A stretch of 64,000 bases of DNA. Source: Deltaproteobacteria bacterium. Lineage in GTDB: Bacteria; Desulfobacterota; GWC2-55-46; DRQE01. The notes under the pieces are model-generated. The model saw only the letters and a program-made list of their open reading frames with translations, made no database searches and was not told where the DNA came from. The position numbers and the translations under genes were made by a program. How positions within the stretch are numbered: the stretch's first letter is position 1; every line of letters starts with the position of its first letter. Below are positions 5,441 to 49,243 of this stretch, piece by piece. The stretch is from positions 62,001 through 126,000 of the forward strand of contig WGFM01000021.1 in NCBI GenBank assembly GCA_015492245.1, given 5' to 3'.

Positions 5441-5567
5441 GTCATTTAATTGACGCCTTCTGTGTCCATAATCCCGTCATGAATAATACACAAAAATCCT
5501 CACCGTATTGTTCTAACCAGCTGTTTTTCCACTGATAATCACTCCTCTTGCAGCAGGCCAACATCTG

Positions 5568-10147: not shown

Positions 10148-10163
10148 TGGTATGGGTATTGCT
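10148..10163 (+). promoter_or_regulatory. sigma54 promoter of the flgB operon
   Basis: TGGTAT-N5-TTGCT, with ten bases between GG and GC, matches the degenerate consensus TGGYRYR-N4-TTGCW. The predicted transcript start near 10174 leaves a short leader holding AGGAGG (10178-10183) before flgB. Confidence 0.8.
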
Positions 10164-20706: not shown

Positions 20707-20743
20707 GTCAGATTTATGACGCATGTAAGTCAAAAGGACTGAC
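20707..20743 (+). repeat. paired GTCA...TGAC inverted repeats upstream of the fliL promoter
   Basis: GTCAGATTTATGAC (20707-20720) and GTCAAAAGGACTGAC (20729-20743) are two interrupted palindromes with the same GTCA/TGAC ends, centred about 22 bases apart and 70-100 bases upstream of the -24/-12 element. That is the usual distance for an NtrC-type enhancer. I do not see the same pattern before the other sigma54 promoters, so the role is a guess. Confidence 0.3.
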
Positions 20744-29974: not shown

Positions 29975-30709
29975 ATGAGCCATCAGTATGCAAAACAATA
30001 CACCAGCGATAGGGATAAGCTTGTAGAGGAGAATGTGAACCTCGTCAAGATCATAGCAAACCAGATTGCCATGCATCTACCACCGCATATAGATGTGGAA
30101 GACCTGATAGGAGCAGGTATTATAGGGCTGATAGAGGCGGTGGACAATTTCGATCCCCAGCGGGGAGTAAAGTTCTCAACCTATGCAACCATAAGGATAA
30201 GAGGGGCAATAATGGATCAGCTGAGAAGTATGGACTGGCTCAGCAGATCCATGCGTGATAAATCCAACCAGCTTGAAAGGGCATACCTTGAGCTCGAAAA
30301 AAAATTCGGAAGACCAGCAGAGCCAGAAGAGGTGGCTGAGCACCTGGGGCTCACAACCGAAGAGTTCTTCCAGCTCTTAAGAGAGGTCAGTGCCTCTACT
30401 GTGCTGAATATAGAAGACCTTGGAATCGGTGGGGGGCAGGAAGGGCTCAATATACTGGAATGTATAAGAGACCCCAATGGTAAGGACCCACTTCTCGTAA
30501 GCAAACTCAACGAGCTTAAAAAAATAGTGAAAGAGGCCGTAGAGAAGCTTCCAGAAAAAGAAAAACTCATAATATCCCTCTACTATTACAACGAACTGAC
30601 CATGAAAGAGATAGGCAGGGTGCTGGATATTACAGAGTCAAGGGTCTCACAGTTGCACAGCCAGAGTATGCACAGGCTGAAGGCACATCTTAACGAATAC
30701 TATGGATAG
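29975..30709 (+). CDS. fliA: flagellar sigma factor sigma28 (FliA)
   Basis: A 244-residue sigma factor with regions 2 (DLIGAGIIGLIEAVDNFDPQRGVKFSTYATIRIRGAIMDQLR span), 3 and 4 (LPEKEKLIISLYYYNELTMKEIGRVLDITESRVSQLHSQS span). FliA reads late flagellar promoters and is held by FlgM until the hook is complete. It is the last gene of the fliL operon and is followed by a sigma28 promoter for the chemotaxis genes. AAAGGAG precedes the ATG. Confidence 0.96.
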   Translation: MSHQYAKQYTSDRDKLVEENVNLVKIIANQIAMHLPPHIDVEDLIGAGIIGLIEAVDNFDPQRGVKFSTYATIRIRGAIMDQLRSMDWLSRSMRDKSNQLERAYLELEKKFGRPAEPEEVAEHLGLTTEEFFQLLREVSASTVLNIEDLGIGGGQEGLNILECIRDPNGKDPLLVSKLNELKKIVKEAVEKLPEKEKLIISLYYYNELTMKEIGRVLDITESRVSQLHSQSMHRLKAHLNEYYG

Positions 30710-30740: not shown

Positions 30741-30768
30741 TAAAGATTACCATGCCATTTACCGATAA
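30741..30768 (+). promoter_or_regulatory. sigma28 promoter of the cheR-motB operon
   Basis: TAAAGATT-N12-ACCGATAA, that is TAAA, 16 bases, then an 8-base -10 box matching GCCGATAA at 7 of 8. The same spacing is seen in three other sites in this window. Transcription should start near 30775. Confidence 0.8.
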
Positions 30769-30838
30769 ATTCAAAGGAGGACAACAACTGTATTAGTCCA
30801 TCTTGATACAATTAATCGAGAAAGGAGAAGTTGACGGT

Positions 30839-35673: not shown

Positions 35674-36399
35674 ATGGCACGCAAGAAAAAACACGAGGAA
35701 CATGAAAACCACGAAAGATGGCTCGTCTCGTATGCAGATTTTATAACCCTCCTCTTTGCATTCTTCACCAGCATGTATGCCATATCCTCTGTCAACGAGG
35801 GAAAGTTCAGAATCTTAAGTGAGTCCCTTGCCATCGCATTCAGCCACTCCATGTATACGACAACAAAGCTCGAGGCAGGACCCACCGTTGTAAGGAAACA
35901 GAGGGCACAGCTTACAGAAAGATTCAAGAAGGCATTTACAGGAGACTACCAGAGACTGAAGATGCTACTGCATAAACTGGAGAAGACAAAGAAACTGACA
36001 CTCCTTCTTGAAGAGAGGGGAGTGGTGATAAGGATCTCAGAGAGTATAATGTTTCCACCTGCAAGTGCAGAAATAGTCGAAAAGGGATACCCCGTGATAG
36101 ATGAGATAGCTTCAGCACTCGATGGTATACCCAATACCATAAAGATAGAGGGACATACAGACAATGTGCCCATAAGCACCCCAAGGTATCCCACCAACTG
36201 GGACCTTTCCAGTGCAAGGGCCATCGCCATACTTAAGTATCTCGTAACAAAACACCACTTCGATCCAACAAGGCTCTTTGCAGTTGGCTACGGAGAGTTC
36301 AGACCAATAACATCAAACGATACGGTTTCAGGCAGGGCAAGAAACAGAAGGGTCGATATAGTGGTGCTAAACAGCAGTGGACTGGCCGAAGAGATATGA
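35674..36399 (+). CDS. motB: flagellar stator protein MotB
   Basis: A 241-residue protein: a basic cytoplasmic start, one membrane helix with the ion-carrying D22 (WLVSYADFITLLFAFF), and a C-terminal OmpA-like peptidoglycan-binding domain (IEGHTDNVPISTPRYPTNWDLS...RLFAVGYGEFRP). It anchors the stator to the wall. It lies 10 bases after motA and ends the chemotaxis/stator operon. Confidence 0.95.
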   Translation: MARKKKHEEHENHERWLVSYADFITLLFAFFTSMYAISSVNEGKFRILSESLAIAFSHSMYTTTKLEAGPTVVRKQRAQLTERFKKAFTGDYQRLKMLLHKLEKTKKLTLLLEERGVVIRISESIMFPPASAEIVEKGYPVIDEIASALDGIPNTIKIEGHTDNVPISTPRYPTNWDLSSARAIAILKYLVTKHHFDPTRLFAVGYGEFRPITSNDTVSGRARNRRVDIVVLNSSGLAEEI

Positions 36400-36403
36400 G
36401 TTC

Positions 36404-36431
36404 TAAAGTTACCCCAGGATTATGCTGATAA
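36404..36431 (+). promoter_or_regulatory. sigma28 promoter of the 36.5-37.2 kb gene pair
   Basis: TAAAGTTA-N12-GCTGATAA: TAAA, 16 bases, then a -10 box matching GCCGATAA at 7 of 8. It begins 4 bases after the motB stop, so the two small genes downstream have a late promoter of their own. Confidence 0.72.
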
Positions 36432-36525
36432 ATATATATAAGGCAAAGGCTACAGGGCTGAAAGAAAGATGGGGGTTGAGGAAGCAATCCAACCTCTGCT
36501 ATACTCTTAAAAGGGGGATGAAACG

Positions 36526-41672: not shown

Positions 41673-41700
41673 TAAAGATTTCTGTAGAATTAACCGATAG
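41673..41700 (+). promoter_or_regulatory. sigma28 promoter of the flgM-flgN-flgK-flgL operon
   Basis: TAAAGATT-N12-ACCGATAG: TAAA, 16 bases, then a -10 box close to GCCGATAA. Its -35 and -10 boxes are nearly identical to those before cheR. It lies 25 bases before the flgM start, with GAGGAGGTGA between. Confidence 0.8.
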
Positions 41701-41724: not shown

Positions 41725-42060
41725 ATGAAGATAAACGGACAGAAGCCCGGGGTGGGCACAGACTCAACGGTAGATAGAAACAAGAAGGTAGAAGGCCAGA
41801 GAAAGGGCACAGCAAGAGTCGGGGGAGGAGAGAAGACAGGGGGTTCACAATCGGTGAGTGTGGAACTCTCTGAGAAGGCAAAGGAACTCAACAAGATCAA
41901 GGGGCTTGTTGACAATGTGCCAGATGTAAGAGAGACCATGATAATAAGACTCAAAGCAGATATAGAGCAGGGCAACTACAGGGTGAATGCAGAGAAGGTG
42001 GCAGAAAGGATGATAGAAAGGGCCATCATAGACTCATTGAGGAGGGATGGTATCAAATAA
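41725..42060 (+). CDS. flgM: anti-sigma28 factor FlgM
   Basis: A 111-residue protein with a disordered, Gly/Lys-rich first half and the FlgM C-terminal sigma-binding helices (VSVELSEKAKELNKIKGLVDNVPDVRETMIIRLKADIEQGNYRVNAEKVAERMI span). It binds FliA until it is exported through the finished hook. Here it lies behind a sigma28 promoter, so FliA makes its own brake. Its TAA overlaps the flgN ATG. Confidence 0.92.
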   Translation: MKINGQKPGVGTDSTVDRNKKVEGQRKGTARVGGGEKTGGSQSVSVELSEKAKELNKIKGLVDNVPDVRETMIIRLKADIEQGNYRVNAEKVAERMIERAIIDSLRRDGIK

Positions 42061-45121: not shown

Positions 45122-45382
45122 ATGTTGGTTCTGACAAGGAAGTCCGGTGAGGCAATAAGGATTGGGGACGATGTAAGGATTGTGGTGGTAGAGATAAGGG
45201 AGAATCAGGTAAGGCTTGGTATAGAGGCTCCCATTGAACAACCTGTCCACAGAGAGGAGATATACCTTAAGATACAGGAAGAGAACAGGGCAGCATCCGC
45301 CATGGTGCCAGAGGATATAGATATAACCATAGACAACATAAAGGAAGGGCTCGAAGGTGATGAAGACAGGCACGAAAAGTAA
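45122..45382 (+). CDS. csrA: carbon storage regulator / translational repressor CsrA
   Basis: An 86-residue RNA-binding protein. The first 50 residues are standard ([17 protein letters not shown]...VRLGIEAP), and a C-terminal tail of about 25 acidic residues is longer than in enteric CsrA. With FliW it usually controls flagellin translation: free FliW takes CsrA off the flagellin leader. GGGAGGG precedes the ATG. The end overlaps fliW. Confidence 0.95.
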
Positions 45383-45848
45383 CAGAAGGATAATGAGCTT
45401 CGATACCACACGCTTTGGCCCGGTTGCCATAAGCGAGGATAAGATTATACACTTTGTCCAGGGTATCCCTGGATTCAAGGATGTCAGGAGATACATACTC
45501 ATAGACCATGATGAAGATGGGGTCTTCAGATGGTTGCAGGCAGTGGATAGACCAGAAGTGGCCTTTCTTCTTACAAACCCTGTGCTCTTCAAAAGCGATT
45601 ACAACATAGTGCTGCGCACAGGAGAGCTCAGAACCCTGGGAGCAGAAGACCCCGAACATCTCGTAATCTTCGTTATGGTATGCTTCCACAGAGAGAGCAA
45701 CACCATGACACTCAACCTCAAAGGGCCAGTGGTGCTCAACTCCCTGAACATGAGGGGCATACAGCTCATACTCGACAGAGATGACTACCCCGTAGACTAC
45801 CCTGTGCCTGTAAGAACTTCCACGGAACAGAAAAGAAAGAGCGGGTAG
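45360..45848 (+). CDS. fliW: flagellar assembly factor FliW
   Basis: A 162-residue protein with the FliW core ([28 protein letters not shown]...[22 protein letters not shown]). It binds CsrA and flagellin. ATG 45360 overlaps csrA by 23 bases and follows a GGAAGGG site; ATG 45393 just before the core is possible but its purine stretch is too close. FliW-CsrA pairs normally sit next to flagellin, which is not in this window. Confidence 0.93.
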
Positions 45849-45949
45849 GTTTTTCCTCCCCTGACCTTATATGATGTCAAATAATTCCCACAAGGTGTTA
45901 CAGTCTCTGACACACCCCTTAAAGAGAGATGCCACAATTTCCCTGTAAT

Positions 45950-45977
45950 TAAAGGATTTTTGCATCCTTCCCGATAA
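45950..45977 (+). promoter_or_regulatory. sigma28 promoter of the glycan operon
   Basis: TAAAGGAT-N12-CCCGATAA: TAAA, 16 bases, then a -10 box matching GCCGATAA at 7 of 8. It ends 9 bases before the sigma54 element at 45987, so its start point would lie at or inside that element. Confidence 0.7.
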
Positions 45978-45986
45978 TAAGATAGA

Positions 45987-46002
45987 TGGTATGGAATTTG
46001 CA
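45987..46002 (+). promoter_or_regulatory. sigma54 promoter of the glycan operon
   Basis: TGGTAT-N5-TTGCA with ten bases between GG and GC, matching TGGYRYR-N4-TTGCW. The expected start near 46013 lies 18 bases before the preferred pseB ATG. Confidence 0.8.
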
Positions 46003-46030: not shown

Positions 46031-47047
46031 ATGAAAATGATGGATATAAACGGAAGCACCATACTCATAACAGGTGGGACGGGCTCCCTGGGGTATAAGC
46101 TCACAGAGATAATACTTGCAAGATACCGTCCCGAGAGACTCATCATATTGAGCAGGGATGAGCTCAAACAACTGGAGATGCGCGAGCATTTCAACAATCA
46201 TCCTGCCTTGAGGTTCTTCATAGGCGATGTGAGGGATAAGACGAGACTGTACAGGGCCTTTGAGGGTGTGGACTACCTCATACATGCTGCAGCCCTCAAG
46301 CAGGTGCCTGCCGCAGAGTACAACCCCTTCGAGGTGATAAAGACCAACATACTGGGGGCACAGAACATAATAGACGCAGCCCTTGATACAGGGGTCAAAA
46401 GGATTATCGCACTGAGCACAGACAAGGCTGTAAACCCCATAAACCTGTACGGGGCAACAAAACTCTGCTCGGACAAGCTCTTCATAGCCGCCAACTCCTA
46501 TGCCGGAAAGAAGGATACAAGGTTTTCCGTTGTCAGATACGGCAATGTGGTTGGAAGCAGGGGCAGTGTTATTCCACTGTTCTTCAAACTCAGACACACA
46601 GGGGTCATACCAATAACCGATAAACGGATGACCCGATTCTGGATAACCCTCGATGAAGGGGCAGAGTTCGTGCTCAAGGCATTGAGGGTTATGAAGGGTG
46701 GTGAGGTGTTTGTGCCCAAGATACCGAGCACGGGCATCATGGACATAGTAAAGGCCATAGCACCTGAATGCAGGATAAGGGTTATAGGGATAAGGCCAGG
46801 AGAGAAGCTGCACGAGGTGCTGATTTCCGAGGACGATGGAAGGCTCACCCTCGAGTACGATGACCACTACATCATACAGCCCAGGTTTCCCTGGTGGGGT
46901 GATGAGAGAAAGAACGGTGGCAGGCCCGTGCCCCTGGGCTTCGTGTATGCAAGTAACACGAACGGCCGCAGGCTCTCGGTATTCGAGATAAGAAACATAA
47001 TCAACAGGTGGTATGAGGATGCTCTCTTACGGACGGCAAACAGTTGA
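46031..47047 (+). CDS. pseB: UDP-N-acetylglucosamine 4,6-dehydratase (inverting) PseB
   Basis: A 338-residue Rossmann-fold dehydratase. Features are the NAD motif TGGTGSLG near the start, DVRDKTRL, and the family stretch STDKAVNPINLYGATK with the catalytic Tyr-x3-Lys. It is the first step toward pseudaminic acid. Inverting PseB differs from the membrane-bound PglF/CapD type by its short length, as here. ATG 46031 is chosen because the in-frame codons before it lie at or before the sigma54 promoter; ATG 46040 is also possible. Confidence 0.92.
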   Translation: MKMMDINGSTILITGGTGSLGYKLTEIILARYRPERLIILSRDELKQLEMREHFNNHPALRFFIGDVRDKTRLYRAFEGVDYLIHAAALKQVPAAEYNPFEVIKTNILGAQNIIDAALDTGVKRIIALSTDKAVNPINLYGATKLCSDKLFIAANSYAGKKDTRFSVVRYGNVVGSRGSVIPLFFKLRHTGVIPITDKRMTRFWITLDEGAEFVLKALRVMKGGEVFVPKIPSTGIMDIVKAIAPECRIRVIGIRPGEKLHEVLISEDDGRLTLEYDDHYIIQPRFPWWGDERKNGGRPVPLGFVYASNTNGRRLSVFEIRNIINRWYEDALLRTANS

Positions 47048-48200
47048 AGAAGACGATATAAGGGCTGTAATATCAGCCCTCAAGAGCGACAGACTCACAC
47101 AGGGTAGAAGAGTAAGGCTCTTTGAAGAACTCTTATGTGAGTACACAGGGGCAAAATACTGTGTGGTATGTTCCAGCGGGACATCTGCCCTGTATCTTGC
47201 CTACAGGGCTTCGGGGCTCAAAGAGAATGGCTCCATAATAACCACACCTGTTACATTCCTTTCAACAGTTACAGCGGCCATACACCTCGGGGGGCTGCCG
47301 GTATTCTGCGATATAGACCCTGAAACATACAACATGGACACCACACTACTTGAAAAGGCAGTCGAGGGGTGCCGTAACCCACATGCAATAGTGCCCATGC
47401 ACTTCGGCGGGCTTCCCTGTAATATGGAAAAGACAAGAGAGGTTGCAGATAGAGAGGGGCTATTCGTCATAGAGGATGGATGCCATGCCCTTGGAAGCAG
47501 GTGGCATGATGAAGCCGGCAGGTGGCACAGAACAGGAGATTGTGCATTCTCGGATATGGCGGTATTCAGCTTCCACCCTGTAAAGACCATAACCACATGC
47601 GAGGGTGGAGCCATAACAACGAATGATAAGACCCTCTATACAAGACTCCTCCACCTGAGAGAACACGGTATAACACGCAATGAGAACAGCTTTGTGGGCA
47701 GCATGGATGGCCCCTGGCACTACGAACTGGTAGAGCCATCCTTCAACTTCAGGATAAGTGATGTGCACTGTGCACTGGGAATAAACCAGCTGAAGAAGAT
47801 AGAAAGGTTCATAGATAGAAGACAGCAGATTGCAGCGCTGTACAGAACCCTCCTTTCAGACCATCATTTTATAAAGACCTCCTGTGAGAGGGCAGATGTT
47901 CTGAATGCATACCATCTCTACCCTGTAAGGATAGAGTTCGAAAGAATAGGGGTGTCGAAGAAGGTGTGGTTCAGGGAGATGGAAGAAAGGGGTATAAGGC
48001 TGCAGGTACACTACATACCCATACATCTACAGCCCTACATGCAGTGGCGGTATGGATTCAGGCGTGGAGACTTTCCAGAAAGCGAGAGATTCTACAGGGA
48101 AGAGGTGAGTCTACCCATATATCCGCTTCTTACAGACGATGAGGTAAAGATGGTGGCACAGGAACTTGTTGCAACCCTTTCGACGCACATGGCAGCCTGA
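47013..48200 (+). CDS. pseC: UDP-4-keto-6-deoxy-sugar aminotransferase PseC
   Basis: A 395-residue DegT/DnrJ/EryC1-type PLP aminotransferase with the family features CSSGTSALYLAY, IVPMHFGGLPCNM, IEDGCHALGS, and the PLP-binding Lys in FSFHPVKTITTCEGGAI. It should make UDP-4-amino-4,6-dideoxy-beta-L-AltNAc. The start overlaps pseB by 35 bases; ATG 47019 is an alternative. Confidence 0.92.
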   Translation: MRMLSYGRQTVEEDDIRAVISALKSDRLTQGRRVRLFEELLCEYTGAKYCVVCSSGTSALYLAYRASGLKENGSIITTPVTFLSTVTAAIHLGGLPVFCDIDPETYNMDTTLLEKAVEGCRNPHAIVPMHFGGLPCNMEKTREVADREGLFVIEDGCHALGSRWHDEAGRWHRTGDCAFSDMAVFSFHPVKTITTCEGGAITTNDKTLYTRLLHLREHGITRNENSFVGSMDGPWHYELVEPSFNFRISDVHCALGINQLKKIERFIDRRQQIAALYRTLLSDHHFIKTSCERADVLNAYHLYPVRIEFERIGVSKKVWFREMEERGIRLQVHYIPIHLQPYMQWRYGFRRGDFPESERFYREEVSLPIYPLLTDDEVKMVAQELVATLSTHMAA

Positions 48201-48214
48201 AGGAGCTTGAGACC

Positions 48215-49243
48215 ATGAAGATGGCAGACAGACTCATAGGAGAGGGAAACCCGGTATACATAATAGCAGAGGTGGGCTCCAACCACGATGGCTCGCTTAA
48301 AAGGGCCAAGGAACTTATGAGGGCCGTAGCCTCTACAGGGGCAGATTGTGTCAAGTTCCAGGCCTTCGGGGCAGAGGCCCTCCTGAACCCCCTGATGCCT
48401 GGCAAAGACGGGGTCTGGCAGCCAGACCCTGCATACCCTGTTATGGAAAGACTCTCCATACCCAGGGGCTGGTATCCAGAACTCATGGAGTATGCAGCCC
48501 TTGTGGGTGTGGATATACTCTTTACAGTGTTCCATGAGGAAGGGGTAGAGTTTCTTACAGGTCTTGGTGCGGTGGCATTCAAGATAGCAAGTGGAGATGT
48601 AACCAATACACCTCTTTTAAGGAAGGTGGCAGAAGCAGGGCTACCGGTGATACTTTCCACCGGTGCATCCTATATGGAAGAGGTGGAAAAGGCAGTCCAG
48701 ACTCTTGAACAAGGAGGGCTTGAAGATATAGCCCTTATGCACTGTGTATCGCTCTATCCACCAGAGCCAGAGGATATGAACCTTAAGTGTATAAAGAGCC
48801 TCAAAGAGAGGTTTTCCCTTGCCACAGGCTTTTCGGACCATGCCACAACAGATGTATTCACACTTGCAGCCGTATCCATGGGGGCCTCTATCATAGAGAA
48901 GCACATAACCTTCAGCAGAACCCTCGATGGCCCTGATCATCCCTTTGCCATGGAGGTGGATGAGTTCGAGAAGATGGTGGCCAGCATAAGGGCCATAGAG
49001 AAGGCCCTTGGAGATGGCATGAAGAGGCCCTCTGAAAGAGAGTTTCCAGAGAGGGTGGGAGCAAGAAGGAGCATATACCTTAAAAGGGCGGTCAAGAGGG
49101 GGACGACCATAACACAGGATATGCTCAAGGTGGTAAGACATGCCCATGGAATGATGCCGGAGGAGCTGGACAGTGTCATAGGGAAGGTGGCCTCAAGAGA
49201 CCTTCCCCCAAACATGCCTTTAAGGAAGGAGGCACTGAGGTGA
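48215..49243 (+). CDS. pseI: pseudaminic acid synthase-like NeuB family enzyme PseI
   Basis: A 342-residue sialic-acid-synthase fold: TIM barrel (IIAEVGSNHDGSLKRAKELM; CVKFQAF; FKIASGDVTNTPLL; GFSDHA) and a C-terminal antifreeze-like SAF domain (RSIYLKRAVKRGTTITQDMLKVVR). It joins phosphoenolpyruvate to a six-carbon amino sugar. Placement after pseB and pseC argues for the pseudaminic product, though legionaminic-type products cannot be excluded. Confidence 0.88.
   Translation: MKMADRLIGEGNPVYIIAEVGSNHDGSLKRAKELMRAVASTGADCVKFQAFGAEALLNPLMPGKDGVWQPDPAYPVMERLSIPRGWYPELMEYAALVGVDILFTVFHEEGVEFLTGLGAVAFKIASGDVTNTPLLRKVAEAGLPVILSTGASYMEEVEKAVQTLEQGGLEDIALMHCVSLYPPEPEDMNLKCIKSLKERFSLATGFSDHATTDVFTLAAVSMGASIIEKHITFSRTLDGPDHPFAMEVDEFEKMVASIRAIEKALGDGMKRPSEREFPERVGARRSIYLKRAVKRGTTITQDMLKVVRHAHGMMPEELDSVIGKVASRDLPPNMPLRKEALR

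Follow-up and report, generated by a model that had tools for sequence, protein, structure and literature searches.

Tightly paired predicted sigma28 and sigma54 promoters before the pseB operon of a Deltaproteobacteria bacterium and its relatives

The pseB gene of this Deltaproteobacteria bacterium is preceded by two promoter-like elements of different sigma factor classes, which raises the question of whether both are genuine and how they would share the control of a flagellar sugar operon. The locus was analysed in a window of 64,000 nucleotides, i.e., the whole stretch of DNA under study. The preliminary description had placed a sigma28 element upstream of a sigma54 element, 9 nt apart; its coordinates proved exact, both elements lie on the pseB coding strand and each site ranked second in the window for its class. 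The locus comprises the following features.

45122..45382, + strand: csrA, upstream neighbour; most relatives have a 50-79% identical csrA next to fliW and pseB
45357..45848, + strand: fliW, directly upstream of the promoter region, as it is upstream of the relatives' pseB
45950..45977, + strand: predicted sigma28 (FliA) promoter of pseB, whole element TAAAGGATTTTTGCATCCTTCCCGATAA, with the -35 TAAAGGAT at 45950-45957, a 12-nt spacer and the -10 CCCGATAA at 45970-45977
45987..46002, + strand: predicted sigma54 (RpoN) promoter of pseB, TGGTATGGAATTTGCA, read as TGGTAT-N5-TTGCA
46040..47047, + strand: pseB, UDP-GlcNAc 4,6-dehydratase (inverting), TIGR03589 502 bits against a cut-off of 408
47013..48200, + strand: pseC, aminotransferase, second gene of the operon, TIGR03588 450 bits against a cut-off of 423.5
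48215..49243, + strand: NeuB/PseI-type nonulosonate synthase, TIGR03569 318 bits and TIGR03586 284 bits, neither reaching its cut-off

The open reading frame listed for pseB began at 45986, which was rejected as too early, the MDLN/MELN starts of the relatives placing the start codon at 46040. The predicted product of the operon is a nonulosonate-type sugar. With PseB and PseC above their cut-offs and the pse genes following flgL-csrA-fliW, it is reasonable to regard the downstream genes as makers of a flagellar sugar, the use of which would be filament glycosylation. The PseI-like, PseG-like and PseF-like (cytidylyltransferase-like) proteins scored below the NCBIfam cut-offs, so that the sugar is assigned no further than the nonulosonate type. 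The csrA and fliW genes (45122-45848) lie directly before pseB, so post-transcriptional control is possible, as in Campylobacter jejuni, in which pseB mRNA is strongly enriched among the targets of CsrA (PMC4894983). A reading in which an extra GGA would be carried only by the longer sigma28 leader was rejected, GGA being found in just 4 of 31 pseB upstream regions, one of which had neither promoter.

The sigma28 element was scored with a matrix trained on 33 fliC and flgM upstream sites of relatives, the own genus being excluded. It reached 22.9, rank 2 among about 128,000 window positions on both strands, which compares with 23.9 for the own fliC and 19.5 for the own flgM site, and with a top score of 13.3 over six 64-kb Markov sequences used as a random control. 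The combination of a TAAAG-like -35 and a CCGATAW -10 separated by 11-12 nt, as in the relatives' fliC and flgM sites, was present before pseB, and the 12-nt spacer was the commonest type in that set (19/33). A search with the E. coli consensus with an 11-nt spacer and up to three mismatches missed the pseB site because these genomes often have a 12-nt spacer, a problem solved by the relatives-based matrix. The factor expected to read the element and the yardstick locus are both encoded in the window.

29975..30709, + strand: fliA, sigma28, TIGR02479 262 bits against a cut-off of 190
41673..41700, + strand: sigma28 promoter of flgM, likewise with a 12-nt spacer
41725..42060, + strand: flgM, anti-sigma28, PF04316 59 bits

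The sigma28 form was present upstream of fliC and flgM, where no sigma54 site was found. The best sigma28 site of the window (30741-30768, TAAAGATT-N12-ACCGATAA, score 24.4) lies before cheR at 30803, and a further sigma28-like site (36403-36432, CTAAAGTTACCCCAGGATTATGCTGATAAA, score 20.1) occurs shortly past a gene end at 36399.

The sigma54 matrix was trained on the pseB sites of relatives with the own site excluded, and gave 20.4 for the pseB element (rank 2 of about 128,000 positions). The TGGTATGGAATTTGCA sequence contains the GG-N10-GC core inside TGGYAY-N5-TTGCW. By the plain consensus alone the site is not outstanding, since 47 matches with two mismatches were found against 37 expected. 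Genome-wide, TGGYAY-N5-TTGCW had 26 matches and the reversed pattern 4. The rpoN gene lies outside the window, on contig C15 (PF04552, 203 bits). Neither a sigma70-like promoter nor a terminator was found in the fliW-pseB interval.

Conservation was followed in 31 pseB upstream regions, i.e., 30 loci of the first search and that of genome G040. A sigma54 site was found in 30 of them, L026 being the sole one without a good site, and it seems to be the promoter that pseB generally has across the order. A sigma28 site scoring at least 12 was present in 12 of the 31 (the own and 11 others), with the gap to the sigma54 element being 9 nt in nine, 8 nt in two and 10 nt in one; in G040, CCGATA also stands at a gap of 9 nt, with a weak -35. 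A few further sigma28 scores of 12 to 17.5 were seen at the relatives' pseB loci, but at none of the positions where the paired element precedes the sigma54 box. Within the pseB set, the own sigma28 site scored highest. When 48 whole genomes were searched for the composite pattern CGATA-N8-12-TGGYAY-N5-TTGCW, 13 of 16 matches fell directly before pseB, in 13 genomes of 7 genera, against a single match for the reversed control. Composite matches at fliK and an LpxC-like gene were discarded, as no sigma28 -35 accompanied them (scores -6.5 and 2.7). A match on L245 (G015), near position 1500, has a sigma28 score of 20.9 and stands before an outer-membrane-like gene adjoining a PII-like gene, in a non-flagellar setting.

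The conservation of the two sites, which the preliminary description had proposed as a check, was therefore borne out by the pair in 13 genomes of 7 genera at a gap of 8-10 nt, related genomes being non-independent samples in all these counts. The tight pair is very probably real and recurs before pseB in a dozen further genomes from its order, and the conservation strongly supports both elements as genuine pseB promoters. That two weak motifs met by chance is hardly credible: a sigma54 consensus with two mismatches is common, but the return of the pair before pseB, similarly spaced, in 13 genomes of 7 genera gives a rough binomial value below 1e-10 when counted by genus. None of the other 25 own sigma54 sites had a nearby sigma28 score above 9.0. 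Outside the order, no pair was found before the pseB-like genes of the named loci, the sole match being the own record of G043, a relative with the pair, and the same-genus genome G001 had no pseB region for comparison.

The sigma28 half is dispensable, about 17 relatives having the sigma54 promoter alone at pseB. Within one genus, G037 has this half and G041 does not. On the PseB tree its distribution requires about six changes, only two of which are forced by well-supported branches, so the half may have been gained or lost repeatedly. From these comparisons, the sigma28 promoter appears to be a second element that varies among genomes but keeps a fixed offset, and it comes closest to the consensus in this genome. 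In the pair-bearing genomes its internal spacer varies from 10 to 12 nt and the gap letters differ, while the gap itself stays at 8-10 nt. Such a near-fixed gap, maintained while the sigma28 spacer and the distance to an upstream palindrome vary, suggests constraint, although common descent could explain a part of it. The near-fixed offset would also fit a reading of CCGATA as a conserved part of the sigma54 promoter, e.g., an upstream contact site; this is very improbable, for the same sequences carry a TAAAG-like -35 at sigma28 spacing, as at the fliC and flgM genes of those genomes, the element is absent at the other own sigma54 promoters and more than half of the relatives lack CCGATA.

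The palindrome in question, GTCA-N6-TGAC, was found in full further upstream in 28 of the 31 pseB upstream regions, but not at the own pseB, where two half-sites were detected instead.

45876..45911, + strand: remnant enhancer region, GTCA half-site at 45876 and TGAC half-site at 45908

The own TGAC lies at -79 from the sigma54 box, the position of the right palindrome half in G007, and by this comparison the own activator palindrome appears to have decayed to half-sites. In the genomes with the promoter pair, the palindrome lies at -86 to -111 from the sigma54 box. For the g16/g21 pseB upstream regions without the sigma28 half (loci L004, L006, L007, L011, L012, L015, L020, L022 and L024), it was observed at about -119 versus -88, i.e., about three helical turns further away. 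The palindrome resembles the proposed FleQ consensus GTCaNTAAAtTGAC, a proposal that has been contested (PMC6120874). No match to the FleQ N-terminal domain (PF06490) was found in the genome; the flagellar cluster encodes two REC-AAA-Fis activators. In the window, GTCA-N6-TGAC occurs only at 5441-5454 (before a TPR protein gene) and 20707-20720 (before fliL), with a perfect sigma54 promoter following 100-127 nt downstream in each case.

These changes could mean that the sigma54 promoter is weakened in this genome, with its palindrome reduced to half-sites and its -24 box (TGGTAT) having T in place of C at two positions. Taken further, the sigma54 box would be what is left of the ancestral promoter in decay, and the sigma28 promoter, the highest-scoring of the set, would be the only one that matters here. 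We regard this as unlikely. The TGGTAT box is shared with G058 and with G007, G011 and G002, and in the last three of these an intact palindrome lies at -87 to -90; the own sigma54 site is still the second best of the window, and the own sigma54 promoters at 10148, 16919 and 37267 are likewise without a palindrome.

The reading preferred here is that two overlapping promoters, sigma54 and sigma28, serve the pseB operon at successive stages of flagellar assembly, to which we assign a probability of roughly 0.8; as judged from the DNA, dual sigma28/sigma54 control of pseB is well supported. By the usual promoter geometry, transcription would start at about 45984 from the sigma28 element and at about 46013 from the sigma54 element. 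The predicted sigma28 start lies about 3 nt upstream of the sigma54 -24 box, and the two polymerase footprints should therefore overlap. The downstream promoter would be read by sigma54-RNA polymerase aided by an enhancer-binding protein, which in most relatives probably binds GTCA-N6-TGAC about 90-120 nt upstream, and the upstream one by the FliA polymerase, with transcripts beginning just before the -24 box. The sugar genes would then be on in the sigma54 stage, when the hook and basal body are built, and also alongside flagellin in the sigma28 stage. The own flagellin gene has a sigma28 promoter only, and the added sigma28 promoter at pseB may sustain or increase the expression of the sugar genes during flagellin synthesis.

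Both promoters would be expected to fire, the polymerases on the two sites would exclude each other through their overlapping footprints and promoter use would shift from sigma54 to sigma28 in the course of flagellar assembly. It is from the geometry only that we infer this mutual exclusion and hand-over. The preliminary description's reading is partly supported, in that its hand-over switch, with timing by FlgM export, is conjectural and a steady OR-gate, or occlusion of the sigma28 promoter by sigma54, would fit the sequence equally well. A conserved switch, in which the two polymerases compete, the spacing is selected and the operon is passed from the hook stage to the filament stage so that sugar is matched to flagellin export, is put forward tentatively, and somewhat against the odds. 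Occlusion appears about as probable as that switch. Here, a stable sigma54 closed complex lacking its activator would shut the sigma28 start until cleared and act as a brake on late expression. The start at 45984 would fall inside any sigma54 footprint, the gap is held at 8-10 nt while the enhancer distance ranges from -86 to -111 in the same set and there is a precedent in which sigma54 represses from a site overlapping a different promoter (Zafar 2014, cited in PMC4591121). The own sigma54 site, however, is among the lower scorers of the pseB set, which weighs against this reading.

Two-promoter control of flagellar operons has parallels. Liu and Matsumura in 1996 reportedly described overlapping promoters in E. 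coli flagellar class II operons, one for sigma70 with FlhDC and one for sigma28. The likeness lies in overlapping promoters that give a flagellar operon expression at more than one stage; at pseB, in contrast, sigma54 with an enhancer-binding protein is paired with sigma28, and the pair stands before a sugar operon. As for occlusion, the case of Zafar 2014, as cited in PMC4591121, shares a sigma54 closed complex lying over a second promoter. The pseB arrangement differs in that the second promoter is a sigma28 one, just upstream and in the same direction, with repression only hypothetical. In C. jejuni, RpoN precedes FliA in the hierarchy, with sigma54 for middle and sigma28 for late genes as proposed here, and pseB is tied to flagellar control (PMC11187230, PMC4894983). 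A paired sigma28/sigma54 promoter at pseB was not found in a search of mainly open-access papers, which is weak evidence of novelty. Both sigma54 occlusion and the overlap of flagellar promoters are already known from other systems.

The arrangement suggests that the flagellin sugar is needed both before and during filament growth. It also offers a compact natural case of a sigma54 closed complex overlapping a sigma28 promoter, in which relatives that carry the sigma28 half can readily be compared with those that lack it.
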